Positions 2,961 to 25,591 of a DNA stretch of 28,587 bases are shown one piece after another. Position numbers and translations under genes: made by a program. The stretch lies in IMG/VR virus record IMGVR_UViG_3300044695_004512, positions 1-28,587 of that record. The stretch is one strand, 5' to 3'. Below the pieces are notes generated by a model that saw nothing but the letters and a program-made list of their open reading frames with translations, was not told where the DNA came from and did not search any database. This DNA is from a virus. Within the stretch, counting starts at the first letter, position 1. Each line of letters begins with the position of its first letter.

Positions 2961-3446
2961 TTATACCGGGCCGTCGACCATTTCCGGCAGCGCCGTTACC
3001 GGCAAACCACGCGCCAGCGGCTTCACAATCTCCACCGCATCCTCAATCGCCTCCGCGGCTTTCACGCGCTTCTCGGCCATTTCCAGCGCCGCGGTAATCG
3101 AAATCGATTGCGTTACGTCTACCTGGACCTGCTGCTTCGCAAACCACTCATGTCTGTGCCGCAGGAACTCCAGCGCCGCCTTCGAATCCCCGCCCTCGGC
3201 CGCCTCGTACAGCGTCCTCGACATCGTCATCTCGCTGTCGGCACGACCCTTCATTTCCGCCAGTTCCGCAATCGGGTCCATCAGCTTCAGGCGGGCCAAT
3301 TCCACCGGCAACATACCTGCCGCCAGCGCAAGCGCATCGCCGCGTAATCCCAGCTTCGCATTCTCGTAAATGCGCTCCAGGGCGTCAGGCGTGGCTTTCA
3401 GCTCTCTGGCAGTGACGGGTAGGTCGCGGAAGACGGAGAGGTGCAT
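2961..3446 (-). CDS. terminase small subunit-like protein
   Basis: A 161-residue protein directly upstream of TerL, the normal position of the DNA-recognising small terminase subunit. An N-terminal helical region (PVTARELKATPDALERIYEN, then LRGDALALAAGM) would suit a helix-turn-helix; a central helical segment (KAALEFLRHRHEWFAKQ) and a region VDVTQSISITAALEMAEKRV follow, as in many phage TerS proteins. I chose ATG 3446 over the longer frame starting at 3602, because the extra N-terminus looks unlike protein and a -10-like TATCAT lies 8 nt before this ATG. No ribosome-binding site precedes it, so it may be translated from a leaderless mRNA. Confidence 0.85.
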   Translation of the reverse strand: MHLSVFRDLPVTARELKATPDALERIYENAKLGLRGDALALAAGMLPVELARLKLMDPIAELAEMKGRADSEMTMSRTLYEAAEGGDSKAALEFLRHRHEWFAKQQVQVDVTQSISITAALEMAEKRVKAAEAIEDAVEIVKPLARGLPVTALPEMVDGPV

Positions 3447-3483
3447 GGGGCGCGATGATAGCCGATTGCCAGCAGGAATGAAA
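3447..3483 (-). promoter_or_regulatory. candidate leaderless-type promoter of the TerS gene
   Basis: On the minus strand the sequence GGCTATCATCGCGCCCC ends immediately before the TerS ATG. TATCAT (3455-3460) is a good -10 box, and a start about 7-8 nt downstream would fall on the ATG itself. No Shine-Dalgarno is present. The -35 is weak (TTTCAT or TTCATT about 16-17 nt upstream). Nearly the same arrangement precedes the leftward early gene at 10907. Confidence 0.5.
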
Positions 3484-3739
3484 CCGAGCAACGCTCGCCT
3501 CTGCGATTGCCGGCAGCGTGAACAGCGCCAGCCGTCAGCGGCGGCGAACTTGGTGGCGTTTGGCGCCAAGGCCAAATTTGGGGCGTGGGAAAGTTTATGC
3601 AAAAAAAATTGGCTGTGGGGCAGGGGCTTAACGCTGCGAACAATAAAAATTTGGTCTGGGGGGTCCGTACCATTTCACTCCAAGCCAAGGCCCTACCCGG
3701 GGCCTCGATTCTCCGCACCCTCATCATCCACCCCCCAAT

Positions 3740-3810
3740 GATCAGCACACTGACGATCTTGATGCTGACGATCCTCGAGCTGACGATCAGCACGCACCTG
3801 GTCAGCACGC
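3740..3810. repeat. 15-bp iterated repeat cluster (TGACGATC)
   Basis: TGACGATC occurs at 3751-3758, 3766-3773 and 3781-3788, exactly 15 bp apart; the preceding base is C each time. Interleaved is GRTCAGCACRC at 3740-3750, 3785-3795 and 3800-3810. The 15-bp spacing is not a whole number of helical turns but is typical of short direct-repeat arrays. Such iterons are known protein-binding sites in origins; no initiator is identified here. Confidence 0.6.
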
Positions 3811-3865
3811 GCATGATCCTCGGGATAGGTACGCTTGCGTCGCCTATCGTTCGGTAGTCGGCAAA

Positions 3866-4228
3866 CCTCGCGCCCCAATGGGGCAAAGGGGACCAGCGCC
3901 GAGCTGCCCGGCAGGGCTCTGCAGCGCGAGGGGACCACGTGAGGGGACCAAGATCAGCGCGACACCCGGACGAACCCCGATAGCGCGCGGAAACCCTCGA
4001 TGGCATGCGAGCCCCAATGGGGCATAGGGGACCAGTACCGATAGAGGGGCCTATCGACCCTCGCGCCCCAATGGGGCATAGGGGACCAGCGGCAGGCGGG
4101 AGGAGGGGTGCCCCACCCGTGCCCCACCGTGCCCCACTCGTGCCCCCCTGGTCCCCTCGTGATTACTACTGGACTCCAAACAGACATCCCCTACTAGGTC
4201 AGCTATATGTATGGGGCATAGGGGACCA
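3866..4228. repeat. dispersed GGGGACCA repeat family with GCCCCAATGGGGC hairpins
   Basis: GGGGACCA occurs at 3888-3895, 3930-3937, 3943-3950, 4027-4034, 4081-4088 and 4221-4228, with an inverted copy TGGTCCCC at 4149-4156. Three copies are preceded by GCCCCAATGGGGCA, a 5-bp stem with AAT loop (around 3872, 4011 and 4065); the copy near 4211 keeps only ATGGGGCATA. The longest shared unit runs about 30 bp from CCTCGCG to GGACCAGC. The copies are not in register with any reading frame. Confidence 0.7.
4181..4209 (+). promoter_or_regulatory. candidate sigma70-like promoter for the 4364-6701 operon
   Basis: CAGACA (4181-4186), a 17-nt spacer and TATATG (4204-4209). Four of six -35 positions and at least four of six -10 positions match the consensus. 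It points rightward and is the best match between the last inverted repeat and the gene at 4364. It would give a leader of about 150 nt that includes one GGGGACCA copy. Confidence 0.35.
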
Positions 4229-4363
4229 CAGAGGGAAACCCGCGTTTTCCTAGTGGGTCACCCCGAAAGACCCCACACTGCGGTAGGTTGTAAGTTTCGC
4301 GTCAGGTTGCGGCGCGAGACTGCGGGCACGGCCGGCGATAGACCGGCTGACGGAGTAGAGAGA

Positions 4364-5104
4364 ATGGCAAAGAACCCGTACCGCGCGCAGCTGCGCGCTG
4401 CAGGCCTGCAGTACCGTCCCATCTTGGGTGAGGCTAGCGCAAAGACCGTCAAGGGTCAAAAGATAGGCTATCTGACGGGGATCTGTTACCTGGTGCCTGA
4501 TGACGGGCTCTGCCCAATGGCGCGCCTGGCTGGGTGCATGGCTGGTTGCCTGCGCACTGCCGGCCGTGGTGCTTTCGATAGCGTGCAAGCTGCGCGCGCA
4601 GCGAAGACCGCGTTTTTCCGCGAGCATCGGCAGGCTTTCATGCTTTCGCTTGCTGCCGATGTTTGGTCGTTGGCTCGGCGCGCCGAGCGCATGGGGATGC
4701 TGCCGTTGGTGCGGCCGAACGGCACCAGCGATATCCCGTTCGAGAATATCCCGGTCGTTGACGGGAAAACGATATTTCAGTTGTTCCCTGATGTACAGTT
4801 TTACGATTACACGAAGCATCCTAGCCGGAATTTGTCCGGAAAGACTGCGGATAACTACGATCTGACATACTCGTTTTCTGCCGTGACGCCGAAGCCTATC
4901 AGCATTAAGGGCCTGCAGAATCCCGCGAATCGGCGCACGGCTGTCGTGTTCGATCGTCGCGAGAATATCCCCGAGTCATTCCGGGGCTGGCCTGTCGTTG
5001 ACGGGGACGATACCGATGTTCGGCACATCGAACCCGCGCGTGTCGTTGTTGCGCTCTATGCGAAGGGTCGCGCGCTCCGATATGTCCGGGTTCGTTCAGC
5101 GTAA
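4364..5104 (+). CDS. conserved phage protein with Cys cluster (Gp88/DUF7227-like)
   Basis: A 246-residue protein. ATG 4364 is preceded by GGAG and AGAGA; the longer open frame upstream runs through repeats and is not used. Visible features are CPMARLAGCMAGCLRTAGRG at about 50-69 (three Cys in a C-x7-C-x3-C pattern), the block VRPNGTSDIPFENIPVV in the middle, and DVQFYDYTKHPSR followed by a GWPVVDGDDTD block near the C-terminus. I recognise this as a family in many phages sometimes called Gp88-like or DUF7227; I know no proven function, and the name is from memory. The Cys cluster followed by a basic helix could hold a metal or iron-sulfur centre, which is inference. It heads the rightward operon. 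Confidence 0.75.
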   Translation: MAKNPYRAQLRAAGLQYRPILGEASAKTVKGQKIGYLTGICYLVPDDGLCPMARLAGCMAGCLRTAGRGAFDSVQAARAAKTAFFREHRQAFMLSLAADVWSLARRAERMGMLPLVRPNGTSDIPFENIPVVDGKTIFQLFPDVQFYDYTKHPSRNLSGKTADNYDLTYSFSAVTPKPISIKGLQNPANRRTAVVFDRRENIPESFRGWPVVDGDDTDVRHIEPARVVVALYAKGRALRYVRVRSA

Positions 5105-5245
5105 GGGACGGGACTATTAATCGTAGGTTTACGGGTCGCGTGCCGGCCCGTATGCGTGCGATTCTCGCGCGACGAAAGCCCTGCGTAAGCCAGCCCACCG
5201 ACACTCAACACGCCCGGATTCCCTGGGCTCACTGGAGACCCTGCG

Positions 5246-5338
5246 ATGCACGACATCCCCCTCACCGTTGCCGACGTGTTCGGCGCCCTGGCCATCGGCG
5301 CCGCGTTCGGCGTGCTGCTCTGGGCTTTCCCGTGGTGA
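5246..5338 (+). CDS. 30-residue single-pass membrane peptide
   Basis: A 30-codon frame from ATG 5246, preceded by GGAG at 8 nt. The first ten residues are mixed polar; the rest is a hydrophobic helix (VFGALAIGAAFGVLLWAFPW) ending at the stop. The stop TGA overlaps a GTG start of the following frame. The preceding 140 nt (5105-5245) show no gene I can support. Function is unknown; position in an early operon and size suit a small membrane-active regulator, but nothing in the sequence specifies one. Confidence 0.5.
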   Translation: MHDIPLTVADVFGALAIGAAFGVLLWAFPW

Positions 5339-5825: not shown

Positions 5826-6103
5826 TGCCCCTCGTGTTACGTAACTGCAACCCGCCCCCCGAGGCACTGGCCCGGGGCCTAGAAGCCGCTCACGCAGTCC
5901 TGTCGGCTGCCGGCGTCACCCCCGAATCCGCCTGGCTGCAGTCGGGCTATCACGTGGCCTGGACCGATGCTGTGGCCATGGCGGCCTGGTATCGAGCCGA
6001 GGATGCCGCGGTGCGGGCCGCTTTCGGCTCCTGGCGCGGAGCGCCGATGGCGGTGGCGATGGAGTGGGAACCCGACACGGAGGCCGAGCGATGCGAGTCC
6101 TGA
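5825..6103 (+). CDS. hypothetical protein (92 aa)
   Basis: A 92-residue protein starting in the TAATG overlap with the preceding gene. It is Ala and Trp rich (AWLQSGYHVAWTDAVAMAAW), mainly helical in appearance, with no membrane segment or cluster of cysteines. Its end overlaps the start of the methylase-like gene by 13 nt. I do not recognise the family. Confidence 0.6.
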   Translation: MPLVLRNCNPPPEALARGLEAAHAVLSAAGVTPESAWLQSGYHVAWTDAVAMAAWYRAEDAAVRAAFGSWRGAPMAVAMEWEPDTEAERCES

Positions 6104-6642
6104 TAGCCTGCGAGTACAGCGGCGCCGTGCGCGATGCATTCCGCGCTGCCGGCCACGATGCCATGTCCTGCGACCTGCTGCCGAGCGATGCGCCCGGTCC
6201 GCACTATCAAGGTGACGTGCGCGAAGTGCTGGGTGATGGGTGGGATTTGATGATCGCGCACCCGCCATGCACGCATCTAGCCGTTTCTGGCGCACGGTGG
6301 TTTCATCTGAAACAGGCCGAACAGGCCGAAGCGCTGGACTTCGTGCGGTTGTTGTTGGCTGCGCCAATCCCGCGCATTGCACTGGAGAACCCGGTAAGCA
6401 TCATCAGCAGCCGGATACGAAAGCCAGACCAAGTGATCCAACCTTGGCAGCACGGACACGGCGAGACAAAGGCTACTTGCCTGTGGCTCAAAAACTTGCC
6501 CGCATTAAGGCCAAGCCATATCGTTGACGGCCGCGAGGCTCGTATCCATCGAATGCCGCCAAGCCCCGACCGATGGAAGATCCGCAGCGCTACCTTCCCG
6601 GGCATCGCCGCCGCCATGGCCGCGCAATGGGGGCGCCTATGA
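6091..6642 (+). CDS. short cytosine-C5 DNA methylase-like protein
   Basis: A 183-residue protein from ATG 6091. It has a SAM-binding-type motif I (ACEYSGAVRDAF at 6-17, followed by SCDL), PPC at 58-60 in AHPPCTHL (the catalytic-Cys motif IV of C5 methyltransferases) and ENP at 99-101 in ALENPVS (motif VI). Full C5 enzymes exceed 300 residues and carry a target-recognition domain and motifs IX-X, which I cannot find here. It may be a compact methylase or a family with the same fold and another role. It sits at the end of the rightward operon, overlapping the gene before by 13 nt and the tiny gene after by 4 nt. Confidence 0.75.
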   Translation: MRVLIACEYSGAVRDAFRAAGHDAMSCDLLPSDAPGPHYQGDVREVLGDGWDLMIAHPPCTHLAVSGARWFHLKQAEQAEALDFVRLLLAAPIPRIALENPVSIISSRIRKPDQVIQPWQHGHGETKATCLWLKNLPALRPSHIVDGREARIHRMPPSPDRWKIRSATFPGIAAAMAAQWGRL

Positions 6643-6768: not shown

Positions 6769-6807
6769 ATCCCCGGGTCGATGCTCAGGCTCCCCGGGGA
6801 TTTTTTT
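6769..6807 (+). terminator. intrinsic terminator of the rightward 4364-6701 operon
   Basis: A 9-bp stem ATCCCCGGG (6769-6777) with CCCGGGGAT (6793-6801), a 15-nt loop, then seven T (6801-6807). Stem strength and T-run are typical of rho-independent terminators reading rightward. It abuts the stop codon of the convergent primase-helicase gene; the opposite strand has no T-run after the stem, so leftward readthrough is expected. Confidence 0.85.
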
Positions 6808-9155
6808 CAGTCCGGCGCCGCTCGTCGGAACTCGTGGACTGACGCTGACGGCGGAGTGTGAATCATCGACTCCAGCATGCGCCGTATTTCGGCCCGGTTG
6901 TTGTCGTATTTCTCCAGCGTCTCCGGGCTGCAGAGAATGTGTTTTTTCGTCGCGTGCTCCCCGCGCGCTCTGATTTTCCCGAGATCCAGCCAGCCGGCAT
7001 GCTGCGCCGCAACGTAAAGAGACTGGATCGACAGTTTGTGCTGCTGCTGATCCTGCTGCAGGCTATCCACCAGTCCCTGCCACGGCCCCATGACGGCCCC
7101 GGGGCGGAACGGCCCGACCCGATCCCGCAGCATCTGCGCGAGCAGCGCCTCGCCTGGCGATAGACCGCCCTCAAGCATGATCGATTTCGCGTCCGTCATC
7201 ATCGGCCGGTCGCCTGGACTGAATGCGCTCACGTCACGCTGTCGCAGCCAGTACGCCACGTGATCCAGTCCGCCGGCCTCGTACCACGTCCAGAGCCTGG
7301 CGGCTTCACTCTGCGGCAGGATTCCGGCTTCTGACCATAATACCATCCATCGGCGGTCATCTGCTGACAACGATAGGGAAACCCGTTCGTTCGAGAATCC
7401 CAGCACCGACAGGCGGTTGAGCGCCGGGTACGGGTGCCGGCCCTTTTCGTTGATCGAAAAAACGTCCGGTGGCGCCGCCAGCAGGGGCTTGAGCTTGTTT
7501 TCCAGCGCTCGCCTGTCGGCTAATGCCGGCTCGCGTAGCTCGTTGAGCACGCACACCTCGCTGAGGAGGTGATAGTGGAAATTCGACTGGATCTCCTCCG
7601 TCGTCACCGTCTTGACGTTCTGCCATCCCCTGCCGCCCACGCTGTACAGGAACGGCAGCCAAAGAGTATCCTTGCCGCTGCCCTGCCGGCCACCGTGCAG
7701 GATGCCGTGGTTGATTTTCTTGGATGGATGCTGGACTTTCCAGGCCATCCAATCCAAGCAATGCTCGCGCTCCTGCTGGTCCGGGATCATGCGCTCGCAG
7801 TGCTCCAGCCACAGATCCACCGATCCCGGCACCCCTGCCGGCCTGCCGTCGCGCCAAGTGTTGCCGAAGACTTCGCCTTCGTGCTCCACTAGCACCGAAT
7901 GGCCAGGCGCGTAGATCAGTCCCGCCAAAGTTTTCCCGCCCATCGCGAGGCGGTTTTCGTCGAACGAAACGCTGGCGGTCACGCGCGAATGCGCCCCGCT
8001 GGCGTTCTGATGGATGCTGTAGATCCGATGGTGCCGAAACGCCGCATCGAATGATTTGCGCTCGATCAGCTTGCGCTTTTCGATGTCGAAAAAATCCGCG
8101 CTCGAAAGCAAGAATGCGAAACGCCTATACCACTGCAGGGGCTCTAACGTTTCCATGTCGGGCGCTTCTGCTGCTGGCGGCGCTGGCGACTCGGGCGCTG
8201 TCGGCTCTGGTTTCGTCGGTTTCGGCGGCTCGGGTTCTGGCGCCTGTGCGTAGACGCTGGTGCGCGGCGCGATCCACGCCCGCGCCTCCTGCCACGACGC
8301 GAACCCGCTGTCCGCAGCGTCCCACCCGTCTGGCATCCCTGCCGGGTCAATGATCTTGACCTCGGCGCAGTGCGGCGCCAGCATCGCTGCCAGGCGCTGC
8401 ATCGTCTGAACGCCGGGCTCGTCGGCGTCGGGCCAGAGCAGCACCTTGCGCCCGTGCACGTGCCTCCAGTTCGCTCTGCTGACGGCCTGCCCGCCACCGG
8501 GCCAGGTGCAGACGACGTACGGCCCCGAGATCGCTGCCGCAGCGTCTGCGGCTTTCTCGCCCTCGACGATGAGCGCCGGGTCGGCGGCGCGGGCCTCCAG
8601 TTCCTGCAGCCGGTAAAGCGGGCGCGGGACGGGCCACTGGCCCATGCCCCACTGGGTGCCGTCCCAGGTCCACGGCACGATCTGCTTGCGCTGCCCGGGC
8701 GGGTCGTATCTGGCGACGTAGCCGAGCACCTCCCCGTTGCCGTCCCAGTATGTCCAGCGGGCCGTCGGTGTGCCATATAGCGGGTGTGCGCACTCGCAGT
8801 CCGCTGCCGCCTCGGGAACGGGCGTGACCACGGTGCGCGCAGGTTTCGCCGGTTTCGCTGGCCGCGCTGGCGCTGCCGCCGTGCTGCCGTCGTCGAGTTC
8901 GCGGTACGCCTCGGCCATCGTCAGTTCGTGGATCGCAGCGTAGAGGCTGATGAGATCCCCGCCGCGGTCGCTGGTGGCGAAATCGGCCCACCGGCCGCTC
9001 AGCAGGTTGACCGACAGCGAGGCGCCCTCGCCGCCTGCCAGGTCGCCGCAGACCCACTCGTGGCCCCTGCGGCGCCCGCCGGGTAGCCACTGAGGGACGA
9101 GGGTTTCGCTGCTGACGAGCAGGCGCTGCGCGAGCGCACGGAAATCCATTGTCAT
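6807..9155 (-). CDS. primase-helicase (TOPRIM primase fused to P-loop helicase)
   Basis: A 782-residue replication protein. Residues 30-75 resemble a CHC2-type primase N-terminus (LSVNLLSGRWADFATSDRGG) but keep only one cysteine, so the zinc site looks lost. Residues 193-290 form a TOPRIM domain: ALIVEGEKAAD with E198, and LLWPDADEPG with D243 and D245. A Pro-rich linker (about 303-335) follows. The C-terminal half has Walker A GGRQGSGKDT at 488-497 and the acidic VCVLNELRE further on, like phage helicases annotated DUF5906/D5-type. ATG 9155 is preceded by GGAGG at 7 nt. It ends the leftward early operon and should open and prime DNA at the fork. Fusion of both activities is common in phages. 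Confidence 0.88.
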   Translation of the reverse strand: MTMDFRALAQRLLVSSETLVPQWLPGGRRRGHEWVCGDLAGGEGASLSVNLLSGRWADFATSDRGGDLISLYAAIHELTMAEAYRELDDGSTAAAPARPAKPAKPARTVVTPVPEAAADCECAHPLYGTPTARWTYWDGNGEVLGYVARYDPPGQRKQIVPWTWDGTQWGMGQWPVPRPLYRLQELEARAADPALIVEGEKAADAAAAISGPYVVCTWPGGGQAVSRANWRHVHGRKVLLWPDADEPGVQTMQRLAAMLAPHCAEVKIIDPAGMPDGWDAADSGFASWQEARAWIAPRTSVYAQAPEPEPPKPTKPEPTAPESPAPPAAEAPDMETLEPLQWYRRFAFLLSSADFFDIEKRKLIERKSFDAAFRHHRIYSIHQNASGAHSRVTASVSFDENRLAMGGKTLAGLIYAPGHSVLVEHEGEVFGNTWRDGRPAGVPGSVDLWLEHCERMIPDQQEREHCLDWMAWKVQHPSKKINHGILHGGRQGSGKDTLWLPFLYSVGGRGWQNVKTVTTEEIQSNFHYHLLSEVCVLNELREPALADRRALENKLKPLLAAPPDVFSINEKGRHPYPALNRLSVLGFSNERVSLSLSADDRRWMVLWSEAGILPQSEAARLWTWYEAGGLDHVAYWLRQRDVSAFSPGDRPMMTDAKSIMLEGGLSPGEALLAQMLRDRVGPFRPGAVMGPWQGLVDSLQQDQQQHKLSIQSLYVAAQHAGWLDLGKIRARGEHATKKHILCSPETLEKYDNNRAEIRRMLESMIHTPPSASVHEFRRAAPD

Positions 9156-9209: not shown

Positions 9210-9686
9210 TCAGGCGAGCAGCGCCACCGCGTCCTCGACCGAGCGGCAAACCCCAGCCACGCCCCCAGCCTGCCGGATCGTGGCTAGGAATTCCTCCTGC
9301 CCGGGCCTCATCCTGCCGGTGCGCGACTTGACCTCGATGGCCAGCGTGCGCCCGTCGCGCAGGACGCCCATGATGTCCGACATGCCGCGCTGCGTGTTGG
9401 CGCGGATATATCGCGTCGTGCCGTCGCGGTTCCGTTCCTGAAACGTGCCGCTGTTCTGCCTCCACACTTGCGCCACGCGAGGGTGGCGCTTGAGCAGTGA
9501 CATGATGGCCCGCAGGATCTCGCTTTCGCTCGGCTCTGCGCTGGGCTTACGCGGCCCGCGCTTCACGGGCTCCGGCGGTATCGGCAACTCCCTCGCCGGC
9601 CTGCCGCTGAGCGCGGCGTATAGCGCCTCGGTCTGCTGGTTGCGGAGCATCTGCTCGCGCAGGGTGCGTCTTCCACGCTCGGTCAT
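9210..9686 (-). CDS. VRR-NUC domain nuclease
   Basis: A 158-residue nuclease of the PD-(D/E)XK-type VRR-NUC family, known from phage and from the repair enzyme FAN1; it cuts branched or junction DNA. The C-terminal half has the full signature: GMSDIMGVL (D104), LAIEVKSRTG (E118, K120), Q130 in RPGQEEF and the closing helix GVCRSVEDA. The N-terminal 50 residues are a basic, Pro-rich extension not needed for the fold. ATG 9686 follows GGAGG at 8 nt and overlaps the stop of the winged-helix gene by 4 nt (ATGA). Beside a primase-helicase it probably acts in replication or recombination intermediates. Confidence 0.88.
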   Translation of the reverse strand: MTERGRRTLREQMLRNQQTEALYAALSGRPARELPIPPEPVKRGPRKPSAEPSESEILRAIMSLLKRHPRVAQVWRQNSGTFQERNRDGTTRYIRANTQRGMSDIMGVLRDGRTLAIEVKSRTGRMRPGQEEFLATIRQAGGVAGVCRSVEDAVALLA

Positions 9687-9991
9687 GCTCCGCACCTCCG
9701 CGCGTAATCCCACACTGACGAAACCTGCTCATGCGCCTGCAGCTTGTGCTGCGCCAGCGGCCTGATGGCCACAACAGGCGGCGGCGCGCCGGCAATCATC
9801 CACACCCATGTGTGCTCATCAATGCGGCGTTTCTGCAGCCTGCCCTGCACGCGCAACTTTCTCAGATGCTGCGCCGCCGTATCCTGCTGGCAGCCAAGGT
9901 GCGCGGCAACCTGCTCACGCCGCACTGGCTGATGCTCCTGCACGTAGGCCAAGACGGCGAGTTTTTCGTTGCTGAGTCTGTGGGTTTTCAT
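9683..9991 (-). CDS. winged-helix DNA-binding protein with C-terminal SVWDYA tail
   Basis: A 102-residue protein. Residues about 5-65 form a winged helix: helices around KLAVLAYVQEH, REQVAAHLGC and the likely recognition helix DTAAQHLRKLRVQG, then a wing with RRIDEHTWVWMI. A Pro-rich linker leads to the C-terminal EQVSSVWDYARRCGA. The gene at 10632-10907 has the same order of parts, including TAxQHL and SVWDYAxR, so the two are paralogues or share a module. ATG 9991 is preceded by AAGGGG. It overlaps both neighbours by 4 nt (ATGA). Function is unknown; a transcription or replication regulator is plausible. Confidence 0.8.
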   Translation of the reverse strand: MKTHRLSNEKLAVLAYVQEHQPVRREQVAAHLGCQQDTAAQHLRKLRVQGRLQKRRIDEHTWVWMIAGAPPPVVAIRPLAQHKLQAHEQVSSVWDYARRCGA

Positions 9992-10412: not shown

Positions 10413-10642
10413 TTCTTCGCCCCCCTCTTGGCTTCCGGCCAAGCCCACCAAATCCTGCGCTGCACATCGGCAGGCGCCGCCATCGCAGCCATCTCGGCAG
10501 CTTCCTCGGCGGAAAACCACGGGGTCGCGACGAGAGACCACTTTGAGCCGTCCCACCAGCGGTGAAACCGACCCGTGCGGGCCACGCTGGCGCGATACCA
10601 CCCAACTGCGGGCGGCGGGCCGGGGTTCCATTCAACGTCCAT
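10409..10642 (-). CDS. small Trp-rich phage protein (77 aa)
   Basis: A 77-residue protein with seven or more tryptophans. The N-terminal half has the pattern PAVGWYRASVARTG then HRWWDGSKWS, typical of small phage domains built on G-W/V-Y and a W-x-G-x-W hairpin; the gene at 15055 has a comparable pattern. The C-terminal half is a helix (AEEAAEMAAMAAPADVQ) and ends Lys-rich. ATG 10642 is preceded by GAGG, inside the end of the upstream gene (11-nt overlap). Function is unknown. Confidence 0.65.
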   Translation of the reverse strand: MDVEWNPGPPPAVGWYRASVARTGRFHRWWDGSKWSLVATPWFSAEEAAEMAAMAAPADVQRRIWWAWPEAKRGAKK

Positions 10643-10907
10643 GCTGCAACCTCATTGCATAGTCCCACACTGACGGGCACTGCTCAATCGCCCGCATAAC
10701 GGGCGCCGAAGGGCGCTGCACCGGCACCCAGCGAGCGTGCCGCCCCAAGCCCACGGCCTGGATGAGCCCGTGATTTTTGAGCGCCCACAAGTGCTGCTGC
10801 GCCGTGGCTGGCTTGCATCGCATGATGCTACGAATCGTTGCCAAGGCGGCTGGCTTGTGGGCGCAGACGGCATCGTATGCCTCCTGCTGGCGTGGGGTTA
10901 GGTTCAT
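10632..10907 (-). CDS. winged-helix protein, first gene of the leftward early operon
   Basis: A 91-residue protein with a LexA/MarR-like start (LTPRQQEAYDAV), helix IRSIMRC and recognition-type helix ATAQQHLWALKNHG, a wing (GRHARWVPV), and the tail SVWDYAMRLQHGR. The same TAxQHL and SVWDYA elements occur in the protein at 9683-9991. It is the first gene of the leftward operon, where a regulator of the divergent promoters is often found; that role is inference. ATG 10907 lies 8 nt after a TATGAT box with no ribosome-binding site, as for TerS, so its mRNA may be leaderless. Confidence 0.8.
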   Translation of the reverse strand: MNLTPRQQEAYDAVCAHKPAALATIRSIMRCKPATAQQHLWALKNHGLIQAVGLGRHARWVPVQRPSAPVMRAIEQCPSVWDYAMRLQHGR

Positions 10908-13513: not shown

Positions 13514-13523
13514 TACGTAATAC

Positions 13524-13775
13524 ACGGCACGGCGAGGCAGGGCACGGCACGGCCAGGCGAGGCAGGGCATGGCACGGCTCGGCAACGCACGGCATGGCAG
13601 GGCGAGGTACATGGCACGGCGTGGCGTGGCCAGGCATGGCGCAGCCAGGCACGGCGAGGCAAGGTACGCGGCTTGGCAAGGCCCGGCGTGGCGTGGCAAG
13701 GCACGGCAAGGCAAGGTACATGGCTTGGCAGGGCAAGGCTCGGCAGGGCAAGGCTTGGCGCGGCAAGGCAGGGCA
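13524..13775 (+). repeat. 250-bp degenerate pentanucleotide array (NNGGC)
   Basis: About 50 units of five bases ending GGC, with the first two bases varying (AC, AG, GA, AA, AT, GT, CA, TT). Three interruptions carry GGTAC (13606-13610, 13663-13667, 13715-13719), two as GGTACATGG, spaced 57 and 52 bp, so there is a weak higher-order period. The plus strand is GG-rich and CC-poor, so it has little scope for self-pairing. Because the unit lacks stops, long frames cross it on both strands; I regard none as real. It fills the gap between the HTH gene and 13821. Confidence 0.85.
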
Positions 13776-13820
13776 ATTTCTGCCCGAATTTGAGTGTTTT
13801 TCAACCAATGGAGTACAGTG

Positions 13821-14399
13821 ATGAAACTGATCGACATCGAAATTCGCGGCATTCAACCGCTTCTCATGCACCGTTTTGCGGAGGACGCGGAGACGGCCAG
13901 CAGCAGCAAGGCGCGCGGCATCGTGCAGGACAGGGGCACGCCCCGCGAACAGGCCGAGAAGGTTGCCTACCGGCATCCTGACGGCACGTTCTACATCTCG
14001 GCGTTCGCCATTCCCAACGCTATCGGCGCGGCCGGCGCGAGCTACAAGATGCCCGGTTCGCGCAAAAGCATGCGGTTCATTGTGCCCAGCGCAATCCGCA
14101 TCTTTGAGCCCACCATCACGGTGATGAACGGCGCAGGCCCTGCCAAGGATTTCGAGGTGGACTCGCGCCCGGTGACGATCCCCGCCACCAAAGGCCGCGT
14201 CATGCGCCACCGCCCGCGCTTTGACTGCTGGGGCCTGCAGTTCAGCATCGGTGTGGACGACACGTTGATGAAAGTCAGCGACGCGCAGATGCTGCTGGAG
14301 CAGGCCGGCCTGAGCATTGGCATCGGGGATTTTCGTCCTGAGAAGCGCGGCCCGTTTGGCACGTTCCGCGTGACCCGTTTTGAGGAGCTCGCAGAATGA
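13821..14399 (+). CDS. conserved phage protein with RAMP-like Gly-rich C-terminus (192 aa)
   Basis: A 192-residue protein. ATG 13821 is preceded by GGAG at 7 nt; an upstream ATG at 13794 has no such site. It begins KLIDIEIRGIQPLLMHRF, has a predicted beta-alpha middle (YISAFAIPNAIGAAGASYK; then FIVPSAIRIF) and VMRHRPRFDCWGL, and ends with GLSIGIGDFRPEKRGPFG, TFRVTRFEEL (163-190). The pattern of an N-terminal strand, helix A with GxPLLMHRF and a C-terminal Gly-rich loop before a last strand resembles RAMP/Cas7-type RRM folds; this is my inference from pattern only. The family is common in phage recombination operons and its function is unknown to me. Confidence 0.75.
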   Translation: MKLIDIEIRGIQPLLMHRFAEDAETASSSKARGIVQDRGTPREQAEKVAYRHPDGTFYISAFAIPNAIGAAGASYKMPGSRKSMRFIVPSAIRIFEPTITVMNGAGPAKDFEVDSRPVTIPATKGRVMRHRPRFDCWGLQFSIGVDDTLMKVSDAQMLLEQAGLSIGIGDFRPEKRGPFGTFRVTRFEELAE

Positions 14400-14593
14400 G
14401 CGCCGCCCGCGAATTCCTCGCGGGCCTGTTCCGCCCCGCGTCGCCCGAGGTTCTGGCAGCGCGTGAGCTGGACGAGGCCCGCCGGCAGTTGCTGGCCGCA
14501 GAGTCCGCTGCGGAATACGCGGACGCGATGTGCGCTTACCACCGTTCGCGGATTGAGCGGTTGCAGCGGTATTTGAAAGGAGAGCAGGAATGA
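14396..14593 (+). CDS. small helical protein (65 aa)
   Basis: A 65-residue protein starting in an ATGA overlap. Apart from an N-terminal AAREFLAGLFRP it is one long charged helix (ARELDEARRQLLAAESAAEY, then CAYHRSRIERLQRYLK), suited to a coiled coil. This form is common among small phage early proteins in this kind of operon. Function unknown. Its end overlaps the next start (ATGA), with GGAG upstream of it. Confidence 0.7.
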   Translation: MSAAREFLAGLFRPASPEVLAARELDEARRQLLAAESAAEYADAMCAYHRSRIERLQRYLKGEQE

Positions 14594-23857: not shown

Positions 23858-25591
23858 TCAGGCGCTCGTCGGCGTCGCCGTCAGTTCAGCGCCCATGATG
23901 GCAATCTTCACCGGGTCGCTGCCGCTGACCTCGTACACGCGATCCCGCAGCTTGGTGGTCATGCCCAAACGCCGCCAGATCACGCGCTTGCCGTACTCAC
24001 CAATATTGCCCATGCTAGCCCAGTGCTCGTTGCTCCACGTATGGCCGCCGTCGTCAGACCAGCGCAGCATGACCTGAGCCTCAAGAGACGTTTGTTTGAG
24101 ATATGCAGAGTACAGTTGAAAATTCTCAACCATCGTGTACAGCATAGAATTTTCTATGTACTGTACCCACTCTTGCCACAAATCTTCTGGATATGGTTGG
24201 TAGGCAGGAAGAGTTTCGTTGATTAAATAATCGTCAGCAATTAGGTAGTCTCTAAAATTGATTATTCCGTCATTGTTAATGTCACCAAGCATTCTTCCGT
24301 TAAACACGGTTTTAAACAAGGTGTTGCCCGGCTCTGTGTCTGAACTGGCTTGAAAAATTCCGTTGTATAGATTGGTGCGCTGGATAACGTACAGATTCTT
24401 TTGATTGCTCGGTCCCGTTTCGCAATCAAGTTGCAATGAATGTTGCGCTGTTCGTTTGAGGCTATTTTGGCCCGTGGGCAACGCCCTCCAAGAGCGCAGC
24501 CATCGTTGTGGGTTTGAGAAATCTTTGTACCAATTTAGGTCAAAAGTAAATAGGCAATTTTCTGTATTGTCTCCAAGCACAATTTGGCCGGCAAAGTTGG
24601 CTTGCGTTCCCGCTCTGTGTTTGGTAAATTGTCCGTTTTCCCAAAATGCCCTTTCGTGCCACGCTCCAGTTGACGCGTCAAAAACCCACGTTGCGTTGGC
24701 CCCGGGAAAAGTCAACGCATAAAACGAGTGCCCGTCCTGCTGATAGGTAAACGCAATCGCATCGTCAACAAAATTGTACGTTTGAATTTGCCATTCAACG
24801 GCATGTGTGCTAACGCGAACAGCGTTGTACCCGTTATTGCGATAAACAATTCCGTTGCCGCGAGCGTCCGAGCCAAGCCAAAAAACGCTGTTGTCCAGCT
24901 TGGCCACGCTGTACGGGGCAAGGCAGCCCGTTTCCATGAACGCGCCCTGAATGCGCTCCAGCGGAAAGTCTGCGGCGCCAGCGTTGTACCAGACCTCGAT
25001 GGTGTTGTTACCGAACAGCCAGACCTCGCGGTGGTCGACCATCAGCGAGACGATGTTGTCCGGGTTGCCTTCGGCGCTGGCAAAGTCCAGCGGGTCTACC
25101 GCGCTTCCGTCATTGAGCGACGTCACCCAGAACCTCTGGCTGTTGGGCTCGTTGAACACAAAGTACCCGTCCAGATAGCCCACCGTCACCGCGCCCGGAA
25201 AGTCGGGGTCTGTGACCTGCGCAAACACGCCCGTGCTGGAGTTGTAGATGAAGGCATCCGGGTTGCAGGCCACGAACAGTTGCGTGCCGTTGTCTGACAT
25301 GCTTACTTGGCCGCTGCCAGTAATTGCCCCCAAGTACGTTGTGTTAAAAAGCTCGTCCGACTTGTACAGACTTCCGCCAGAAGCAATGTACAAATTTGTT
25401 CCGAACTTCCAAAGCCCGCGTATTGGCCCACTTCCAACCGTGCGAATAAGCCTTGATCCAGGGCACCGCTGGAGAAAAGCGGGCTCCTTGCCGCCGTCGG
25501 GCACAACCTCGGGAAACAGGTTGACCATGCGGCTGTCCGCAGCATTGACGCTGCGAGCCACATACGACGAGCCAAGAATTGGCGTCTTCAC
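23858..25591 (-). CDS. P22 gp10-like tail accessory (packaged-DNA stabilisation) protein
   Basis: A 577-residue protein like P22 gp10, which with gp4 closes the portal after packaging. The N-terminal 330 residues are beta-propeller-like (GLWKFGTNLYIASGGSLYK; VWLFGNNTIEVWYNAG). The C-terminus has MLRWSDDGGHTWSNEHW, GEYGKRVIWRRLG and RDRVYEVSGSDPV, typical of the family. Between them, residues 437-448 (DINNDGIINFRD) form a dockerin/EF-hand-type calcium loop, in a stretch of much lower G+C than the rest of the window. GTG 25591 starts 2 nt after the gp4-like stop, with GGGGAA about 11 nt upstream. Confidence 0.86.
   Translation of the reverse strand: MKTPILGSSYVARSVNAADSRMVNLFPEVVPDGGKEPAFLQRCPGSRLIRTVGSGPIRGLWKFGTNLYIASGGSLYKSDELFNTTYLGAITGSGQVSMSDNGTQLFVACNPDAFIYNSSTGVFAQVTDPDFPGAVTVGYLDGYFVFNEPNSQRFWVTSLNDGSAVDPLDFASAEGNPDNIVSLMVDHREVWLFGNNTIEVWYNAGAADFPLERIQGAFMETGCLAPYSVAKLDNSVFWLGSDARGNGIVYRNNGYNAVRVSTHAVEWQIQTYNFVDDAIAFTYQQDGHSFYALTFPGANATWVFDASTGAWHERAFWENGQFTKHRAGTQANFAGQIVLGDNTENCLFTFDLNWYKDFSNPQRWLRSWRALPTGQNSLKRTAQHSLQLDCETGPSNQKNLYVIQRTNLYNGIFQASSDTEPGNTLFKTVFNGRMLGDINNDGIINFRDYLIADDYLINETLPAYQPYPEDLWQEWVQYIENSMLYTMVENFQLYSAYLKQTSLEAQVMLRWSDDGGHTWSNEHWASMGNIGEYGKRVIWRRLGMTTKLRDRVYEVSGSDPVKIAIMGAELTATPTSA
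24080..24900. other. AT-rich patch inside the gp10-like gene
   Basis: By hand count G+C is about 40% over 24121-24420, against clearly above 60% in most of the window. The patch starts and ends within the reading frame without breaking it and contains the calcium-loop segment. This suggests that the middle of the gene came from a different source, or is under different codon pressure. Confidence 0.7.

Follow-up and report, generated by a model that had tools for sequence, protein, structure and literature searches.

A repeat array between divergently transcribed genes

The DNA analyzed here (the window), 28,587 bases long, comes as a virus record that is classed as linear, a class that is often a fragment. 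A short repeat array separates two groups of divergently transcribed genes. To its left, a putative TerS, TerL, and the portal protein are all encoded on the minus strand, and to its right a plus-strand GP88-family gene is followed by a DNA methyltransferase gene (6070-6642). The features discussed below are listed in Table 1.

Table 1. Positions of the genes, repeat sites, and codons discussed in the text, numbered along the window.
Feature	Position	Strand	Remarks
Putative TerS	2961..3446	-	Named by position only
Distal unit 1	3872..3895	+	Inverted GCCCC arm, GGGGCA (3880), GGGGACCA (3888)
Distal sites 2 and 3	3930..3950	+	GGGGACCA at 3930 and 3943
Distal unit 4	4011..4034	+	GCCCC arm, GGGGCA (4019), GGGGACCA (4027)
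Distal unit 5	4065..4088	+	GCCCC arm, GGGGCA (4073), GGGGACCA (4081)
Core left cluster	4109..4156	-	Five half-sites: four GGGGCAC and one GGGGACCA
AT-rich spacer between opposed clusters	4157..4212	no strand	Candidate unwinding element, 56 bp
Core right cluster	4213..4228	+	GGGGCATA-GGGGACCA pair, directed away from the spacer
GGGGACCA sites	3888, 3930, 3943, 4027, 4081, 4221; 4149-4156	+; -	Exact match
GP88-family gene	4364..5104	+	First recognised gene right of the array
Primase-helicase, 782 aa	6807..9155	-	Primase-like N half, helicase core (PF19263/DUF5906), predicted C-terminal winged helix; proposed word-reading initiator
Codons of residues 729-737	6945..6971	-	Predicted wing loop and its edges; word-tracking columns

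The putative TerS was taken to start at residue 53 of a long ORF, the point from which divergent relatives can be aligned to it; it has no match in PHROGs or Pfam, and its only NCBIfam match is unrelated and far below the cut-off. The primase-helicase matches a PHROG of DNA primase/helicase. Its N half reaches 12.4 bits against Toprim_2 in the window (cut-off 22.1) and 22.7 bits in the relative L126, while its core matches DUF5906 with 38 bits (cut-off 27.6); no family named SF3 is among the matches. The helicase profile also matches the solved chain 6k9c, named Primase (E 1.9e-10). When bacterial genomes were scanned with the helicase, 15 loci were found, all matching within the first 317 residues only.

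Farther along the window, two small minus-strand ORFs (9683-9991 and 10632-10907) have a common SVWDYA motif near the C-terminal end; the former matches MarR-like regulators and the latter, weakly, a DNA helicase family. At 13523-13776, two small ORFs are separated by a degenerate tandem repeat with units of 5, 10, and 52 bp (GGCACGGCAA), whose 10-mer is present about 25 times with a match of 63%. GC content, about 60-68% in most of the window, falls to 48% at 24001-25000 inside the gene at 23858-25591, which is perhaps a recent import.

Exact search confirmed the six direct copies and one inverted copy of GGGGACCA that a preliminary description had placed within about 340 nt; all lie between 3888 and 4228, and the window has none elsewhere. 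When the whole window was shuffled 100 times with its dinucleotides preserved, no shuffle contained seven copies (mean 0.94, largest 4), and in 1000 shuffles of 3601-4360 GGGGACCA never exceeded two copies and no 8-mer exceeded four. The same description had joined three copies to an identical GCCCC-AAT-GGGGC hairpin, and exactly three do carry it (3872-3884, 4011-4023, and 4065-4077). A fourth tandem unit, which it had not included, lies at 4211-4228 and lacks the GCCCC arm. Besides GGGGACCA there are eight GGGGCA half-sites, four on the plus strand (3880, 4019, 4073, 4213) and four on the minus strand (4109-4114, 4120-4125, 4130-4135, 4141-4146), giving 15 half-sites (GGGGAC/GGGGCA) between 3880 and 4228. 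The short half-site alone is not special, since it occurs 47 times in the window, 15 times in the 349 bases of the array and 32 times across the other 28 kb.

The three hairpin-bearing units read GCCCC-AAT-GGGGCAxA-GGGGACCA, that is, one inverted half-site and two direct half-sites 8 bp apart. As a DNA single strand, the array folds no better than its shuffles (z -0.44), and the "hairpins" are therefore better read as opposed half-sites, back to back. In the core left cluster, successive half-sites are 11, 10, 11, and 10 bp apart, i.e., one helical turn. The spacer that separates this cluster from the oppositely directed right cluster has an AT content of 57%, whereas that of the window as a whole is 36% and that of 3866-4156 is 29%. 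Searches of the window with Rfam and for tRNAs gave no match, and the DNA of 3400-5300, compared with named phages, gave a single 42-base match and nothing more.

Related phages carry arrays of other words in the same place

Relatives were gathered from IMG/VR by searches with TerL, TerS, and the helicase. Many have an array in the same place, upstream of TerS, but built from another short word. Our first list comprised the words A (GGGGACC, the window), B (GGGGTAC), C (GGGGACA), D (GGGGTAT), E (GGGGGCTA), F (TGCCAC), and G (TTGTCA). Further phages have GCCAACA (H), GTCCACA, TGACCCAT, TGGCCCAT, GACTTAC, TRCCCCA, TGACYCAC, CTACCAA, and CACTAAC, and 16 words were listed in all, three of which (F, M, and N) are pooled from closely similar variants.

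The share of arrays in the first set is uninformative on prevalence because 45 of its 46 loci were picked for having an array (at least four copies) and a helicase sequence. Among the 80 loci from the helicase search, 36 span the full 1500 bases upstream of TerS; at least four copies of one listed word are present in 35 of these, and the remaining locus (L125) has GGGGCA/GGGGAC sites. Arrays are not universal: a relative with an 80% identical TerS (L107) has no 7-mer above three copies, and distant TerS relatives (50-63%) range from one with a clear GACCCAC array (L078) to several with weak or plain tandem repeats.

Across 27 arrays the layout is often kept: opposed sites are separated by an AT-rich gap that measures about 55-60 bp, tandem sites follow each other at about 9-10 bp, and distal units are directed back. 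Under a gap rule of our own, opposed sites lie 38-110 bp apart in 74 of 108 arrays; in 57 of these, AT content is higher in the gap than in the remainder, and in 17 it is not. The rule finds no opposed gap in 34 of the 108, including all five J arrays, the single K and O arrays, 11 of 19 N arrays, and 7 of 15 F arrays.

A spreading mobile or REP-like repeat, or a folded RNA or DNA, would account for the 13-nt inverted repeat common to three units of the window, and a small mobile or recombinogenic unit had been suggested in the preliminary description. Yet in none of the 11 near-complete genomes examined does the word form another cluster (more than two copies in 500 bp), the word is replaced wholesale between relatives, and neither the folding nor the Rfam result described above points to a structured element. 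We find the mobile unit unsupported and regard this whole group of readings as the least probable considered here, with next to no weight.

Of 11 genomes, 5 have their maximum of keto skew, which is one of six extremes inspected, no more than 200 bp from the array, and 10 no more than 3.2 kb from it, but gene direction also flips at the array; GC or strand skew is not clean support for an origin.

MW202483.1, the record of a podovirus from Manatee Spring, is complete and circular, has portal and coat annotated as P22-like, and encodes a helicase whose C half is 44% identical to that of the window and is joined to a different N half. Its CTACCAA array lies between the terminase and the early genes and has, by eye, an AT-rich middle, which the gap rule left unscored. 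MW202496 (28%) carries a CTGTTACG array.

Some loci show further repeats or unusual contigs. A second array of 10-12 GTTTACA/ATGTAAA copies adjoins the CTACCAA array of MW202483 (L251, 28220-28590) and is also found in L253-L256; it could consist of sites for a second reader. In L211/L258 (about 14364-14460) and in L262, an origin-like array is adjoined by a tandem repeat of the CGGCGGTCGG type, whose 7-mers are present in 13-18 copies. One contig of 95,467 bases (L006/L218), perhaps an assembly chimera or a multimer, has a near-identical copy of the L126 locus, its relatives being 36-40 kb long.

The word tracks the C-terminal part of the primase-helicase

Direct adjacency to the putative terS gene speaks for a packaging (pac) site bound by TerS, one of the possibilities raised in the preliminary description. 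TerS proteins that are 93-97% identical nevertheless occur with word A, D, or F: relative to the window, TerS is 95% identical in L085/L086, which have GGGGTAT, and 97% identical (residues 52-213) in L043, which has TGCCAC. L126 represents a natural swap. Identity to the window is 96-100% for portal, TerL, GP88, and five early genes, 93% for TerS, and 83% for the VRR nuclease and one small ORF, but only 72% for the helicase and 63% for the methyltransferase, and the word is D.

To compare candidate readers, we counted word changes on each gene tree and on the tree of helicase residues 641-782 for the same loci, the minimum being six in each comparison and identical helicase C halves being counted repeatedly. 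The TerS tree required 15 changes and the helicase segment 7 (39 loci, 7 words). The corresponding counts were 12 and 6 for TerL (26 loci), 14 and 7 for the VRR nuclease (36 loci), 11 and 6 for Exo (24 loci), and 9 and 6 for RecT (15 loci); GP88, with three loci only, was left out. A packaging site read by TerS is thus very unlikely given the near-identical TerS proteins with three different words and the 15 versus 7 changes. The VRR nuclease and the recombination genes were likewise rejected as readers, both requiring more changes than the helicase segment on the same loci.

A transcription regulator acting on an operator field would be an alternative reader, for example one of the two winged-helix-like small ORFs described above. 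Repeats between divergent genes would suit such a field, and the ORF at 9683-9991 is MarR-like. L126, on the other hand, keeps both ORFs (83% and 100% identical) while its word has gone from GGGGACC to GGGGTAT. The ORF trees required 7 (18 loci) and 9 (20 loci) changes, close to the shuffled means of 7.7 and 9.3, whereas helicase residues 641-782 required 4 and 4 on the same loci, which is the minimum, and both ORFs were rejected as readers. Moreover, we found no sigma-70-like promoter at 3400-4500. We rate an operator field slightly below even the TerS-bound site. A protein-binding array is thus supported, and the regulator-binding array envisaged in the preliminary description comes close to it, but the protein that co-varies with the array is the replication primase-helicase.

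The methyltransferase, which also differs in L126, was matched in 12 of 46 loci and required 7 changes compared with 6 for the helicase segment (shuffled mean 8.4); as a reader it is poorly tested by these counts alone, and the wing columns described below argue for the helicase.

Within the helicase itself, the word signal lies toward the C-terminus. Over all loci, residues 641-782 required 7 changes (46 loci), residues 310-440 and 441-640 12 each (46 loci), and residues 1-290 20 (45 loci). When 42 full helicases were cut into slices of 80 residues, those that end no later than residue 300 gave 15-18 changes, those in the core 10-13, and those from residue 661 onward 6-7. In L156 the N half is nearest to phages with word C or D (93-94%), the C half is 93-99% identical to that of word-E phages, and the word is E. 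By these comparisons, the word follows what is predicted to be a C-terminal winged-helix domain of the primase-helicase.

The primase-like N half and the C half of the helicase recombine as separate modules, as seen in L145, L156, and L251; the last (MW202483) has a homologous C half on an unrelated-looking N half.

A predicted wing loop varies with the word

An AlphaFold2 model of the C-terminal domain built with 37 sequences has helices at 692-702 and 710-720 and strands at 723-729 and 737-742 with a loop between them, predicting a winged helix with its wing tip at 730-736. The blocks of the domain have pLDDT values of 82-89 and the wing block 65; a model of the full-length helicase was poor (pLDDT 54.8) and left unused. 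RTP, PadR, and Fur, which we take to be winged-helix proteins, are frequent among the structure matches of the domain, the best of which has a low Z of 5.4. A search by sequence gave no convincing solved structure for the domain. The solved DNA-binding domain of P4 alpha is not among the 50 structure matches listed, which excludes nothing.

Two pairs of words converge on the same nine residues, 729-737. Between helicases with word C (six) and word D (five), the only perfectly separating positions in the whole protein are 729, 730, 731, 734, and 736; between all those with word F (17) and word G (4), they are 729, 735, 736, and 737. Words A and B are confounded, with 136 differing columns. Of seven classes compared by eye, all but P (F, G, H, I, L, and N) have K at residue 729 where the base before AC is C, and A where that base is A or T.

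As sole determinant, the recognition helix was rejected, requiring 21 word changes compared with 16-17 for segments of the wing (minimum 15). The N half of L145 is nearest to the window (89%), and its C half shows comparable identity to those of E (72%) and F (68%) phages; the wing, KSR-NNQSA, nevertheless resembles that of F phages, and the array is built from word F. The wing of L125, KTP-EHxTK, is common to phages that are 47-53% identical elsewhere and have a different recognition helix, and all of these fall into the lumped word class M. Because the F-like wing and word F of L145 come with a C half that resembles F phages no more than E phages, and because L125 shares wing and word class despite another recognition helix, we lean toward the view that the wing loop, and not the recognition helix, writes the origin word; exchange of about 5-8 residues in a beta-hairpin would then re-target the whole origin.

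Word and wing in a second set of phages

A second set of loci was obtained by scanning with the distant helicase of L212, which gave 80 loci including the query's own, and with the helicase of MW202483, which gave five. Before words were assigned, we removed L257, which is truncated, and L211, which is on the contig of L258; 8 of 132 loci stayed unlabelled (L253-L256, with GTTTACA arrays, L267, L280, L312, and L328). In this and the gap analysis, identical C halves were counted once.

For 108 distinct helicase C halves, we compared all pairs whose identity outside the wing was 75% or more. When the two wings differed at 0-2 places, the word was the same in 523 pairs and different in 5; the corresponding numbers were 24 and 128 for 3-4 differences and 1 and 157 for at least 5. 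These counts are not independent trials because the pairs share ancestry. All five exceptions involve L302, whose wing is two places off that of word-H phages and whose word is GACTTAC instead of GCCAACA. The 25 pairs with a common word despite at least three wing differences belong to words F (13), D (11), and P (1).

First-set words had come from clustered 7-mers and were fixed before the wing was known. In the 68 second-set helicases, whose words were listed by eye from output that paired wing and k-mers and three of which (L125, L212, and L251) had been inspected earlier, segments within 724-737 separated same-word from different-word pairs with an AUC of 0.998-1.000 (724-733, 1.000; the nine-column segments 726-735, 727-736, and 728-737, 0.999, 0.999, and 0.998). 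The median nine-column segment reached 0.565 and the whole C half 0.642. With an AUC of 0.992 for 748-759, the wing is not the sole word-tracking segment.

Since the second-set words had been listed with the wing in view, we also ran a label-free test, in which the k-mer likeness of arrays was compared with segment differences. For all 108 helicases, rho was -0.64 to -0.66 in the best segments, 724-733 to 731-740, and -0.20 in the median segment. With the second set alone, 749-760 was best (rho -0.570), followed by 733-741 (-0.566). The label-free test is weaker but points in the same direction as the labelled tests.

In the second set, residues 748-760 (codons at about 6876-6914) thus come close to the wing in how well they follow the word and are perhaps a second DNA contact or a hitch-hiker. 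The wing appears to be the best candidate reader, with 748-760 as a possible second contact.

A candidate replication origin

Taken from the sequences themselves, the picture is one of an array with a kept place, an opposed layout, and different words that co-vary with helicase residues 729-737. Such a joint change of word and loop is expected if the loop reads the word, and we therefore propose the loop as reader. Our main reading, to which we assign a probability of roughly 85%, is that the array is a replication origin whose half-sites would be read by the primase-helicase through its C-terminal winged helix, with helicase rings opening the AT-rich stretch. The primase-helicase would bind the GGGGACCA/GGGGCA half-sites. 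Two rings could load facing each other, one on either side of the AT-rich stretch, because opposed clusters flank it; they would open it, and primase action would follow. Direct binding, ring loading, unwinding and priming, and origin activity are proposed by analogy with P4 alpha, SaPI Rep, and Cch2. Since word and wing loop change together in the lineage, each phage type may have a private origin word.

The helicase could instead bind the array as an accessory site for copy control, enhancement of replication, or regulation, like P4 crr, with initiation elsewhere. Consistent with this, the array lies between divergent genes and 2.6 kb from the helicase gene, its distal units are outside the opposed core, and MW202483 has the different GTTTACA array beside its first one. 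We nevertheless consider an accessory role unlikely, given that a second cluster of the same word is lacking from all 11 near-complete genomes and that the opposed layout surrounds an AT-rich gap in 57 of the 74 gap-scored arrays (of 108).

The scheme of array and helicase occurs in many tailed-phage contigs, in which words turn over while neighboring genes hardly change, and provides a natural set of matched protein-DNA pairs with a resolution down to single residues. If the wing indeed reads an origin, the at least 16 wing-word pairs would form a natural code book in which each pair is an orthogonal replicon, and origins of uncultured phages would be predictable from the helicase sequence. 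It would also become testable how initiators shift origin specificity without loss of function and why private origins are needed, one idea being that satellites or rivals exploit or cut the origin.

Comparison with known systems

Self-loading primase-helicases with iteron origins are already known from satellites and islands. New within the literature searched are the private words across a tailed-phage lineage and their link to a wing loop; among the papers listed from open-licence PubMed Central, none deals with iteron words co-varying with the wing loop of phage primase-helicases.

PICIs are satellites that lack a full set of virion genes of their own. PICI and SaPI origins consist of two sets of short iterons that flank an AT-rich stretch, and the iterons are recognized by the C-terminal domain of a self-loading initiator helicase (PMC6092414, PMC7581432). 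The window has the same layout, with two opposed sets of iterons on either side of an AT-rich stretch, and the C-terminal reader proposed here adds to the likeness to Rep (Pri-Rep). It differs in coming from a tailed phage that encodes packaging and structural proteins itself, the window having matches for TerL, portal, head-tail adaptor, and endolysin, unlike a satellite. Furthermore, the array is at the terS junction and not directly 3' of the proposed initiator gene: it ends at 4228 and the helicase gene at 6807, with GP88 and the methyltransferase between them.

P4 alpha unites primase, helicase, and a winged-helix domain that binds origin repeats in one protein (PMC4234260). The helicase studied here resembles P4 alpha with its ori/crr in having a primase-like N half, a helicase core, and a predicted C-terminal winged helix in one protein, a likeness by domain plan; here, in addition, the words diversify within one lineage. 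For the SCCmec helicase Cch2 and its putative origin, the C-terminal domain by itself is reported to bind direct repeats that lie downstream of the operon (PMC7581432). That system has separate primase and polymerase proteins and three iterons only, and it is not a phage.

In the PLE of Vibrio cholerae, iterons of RepA are needed for replication, relatives exchange replication modules, and antagonists may select for iteron change, according to two reports (PMC8263062, PMC7145576). RepA is a RepA_N-type initiator for which neither primase nor helicase activity is predicted, in contrast to the protein studied here. Private iterons paired with specificity determinants in the initiator are also a feature of geminivirus Rep. 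Geminiviruses, however, are single-stranded DNA viruses of plants that replicate by rolling circle, and their Rep has an unrelated DNA-binding domain.
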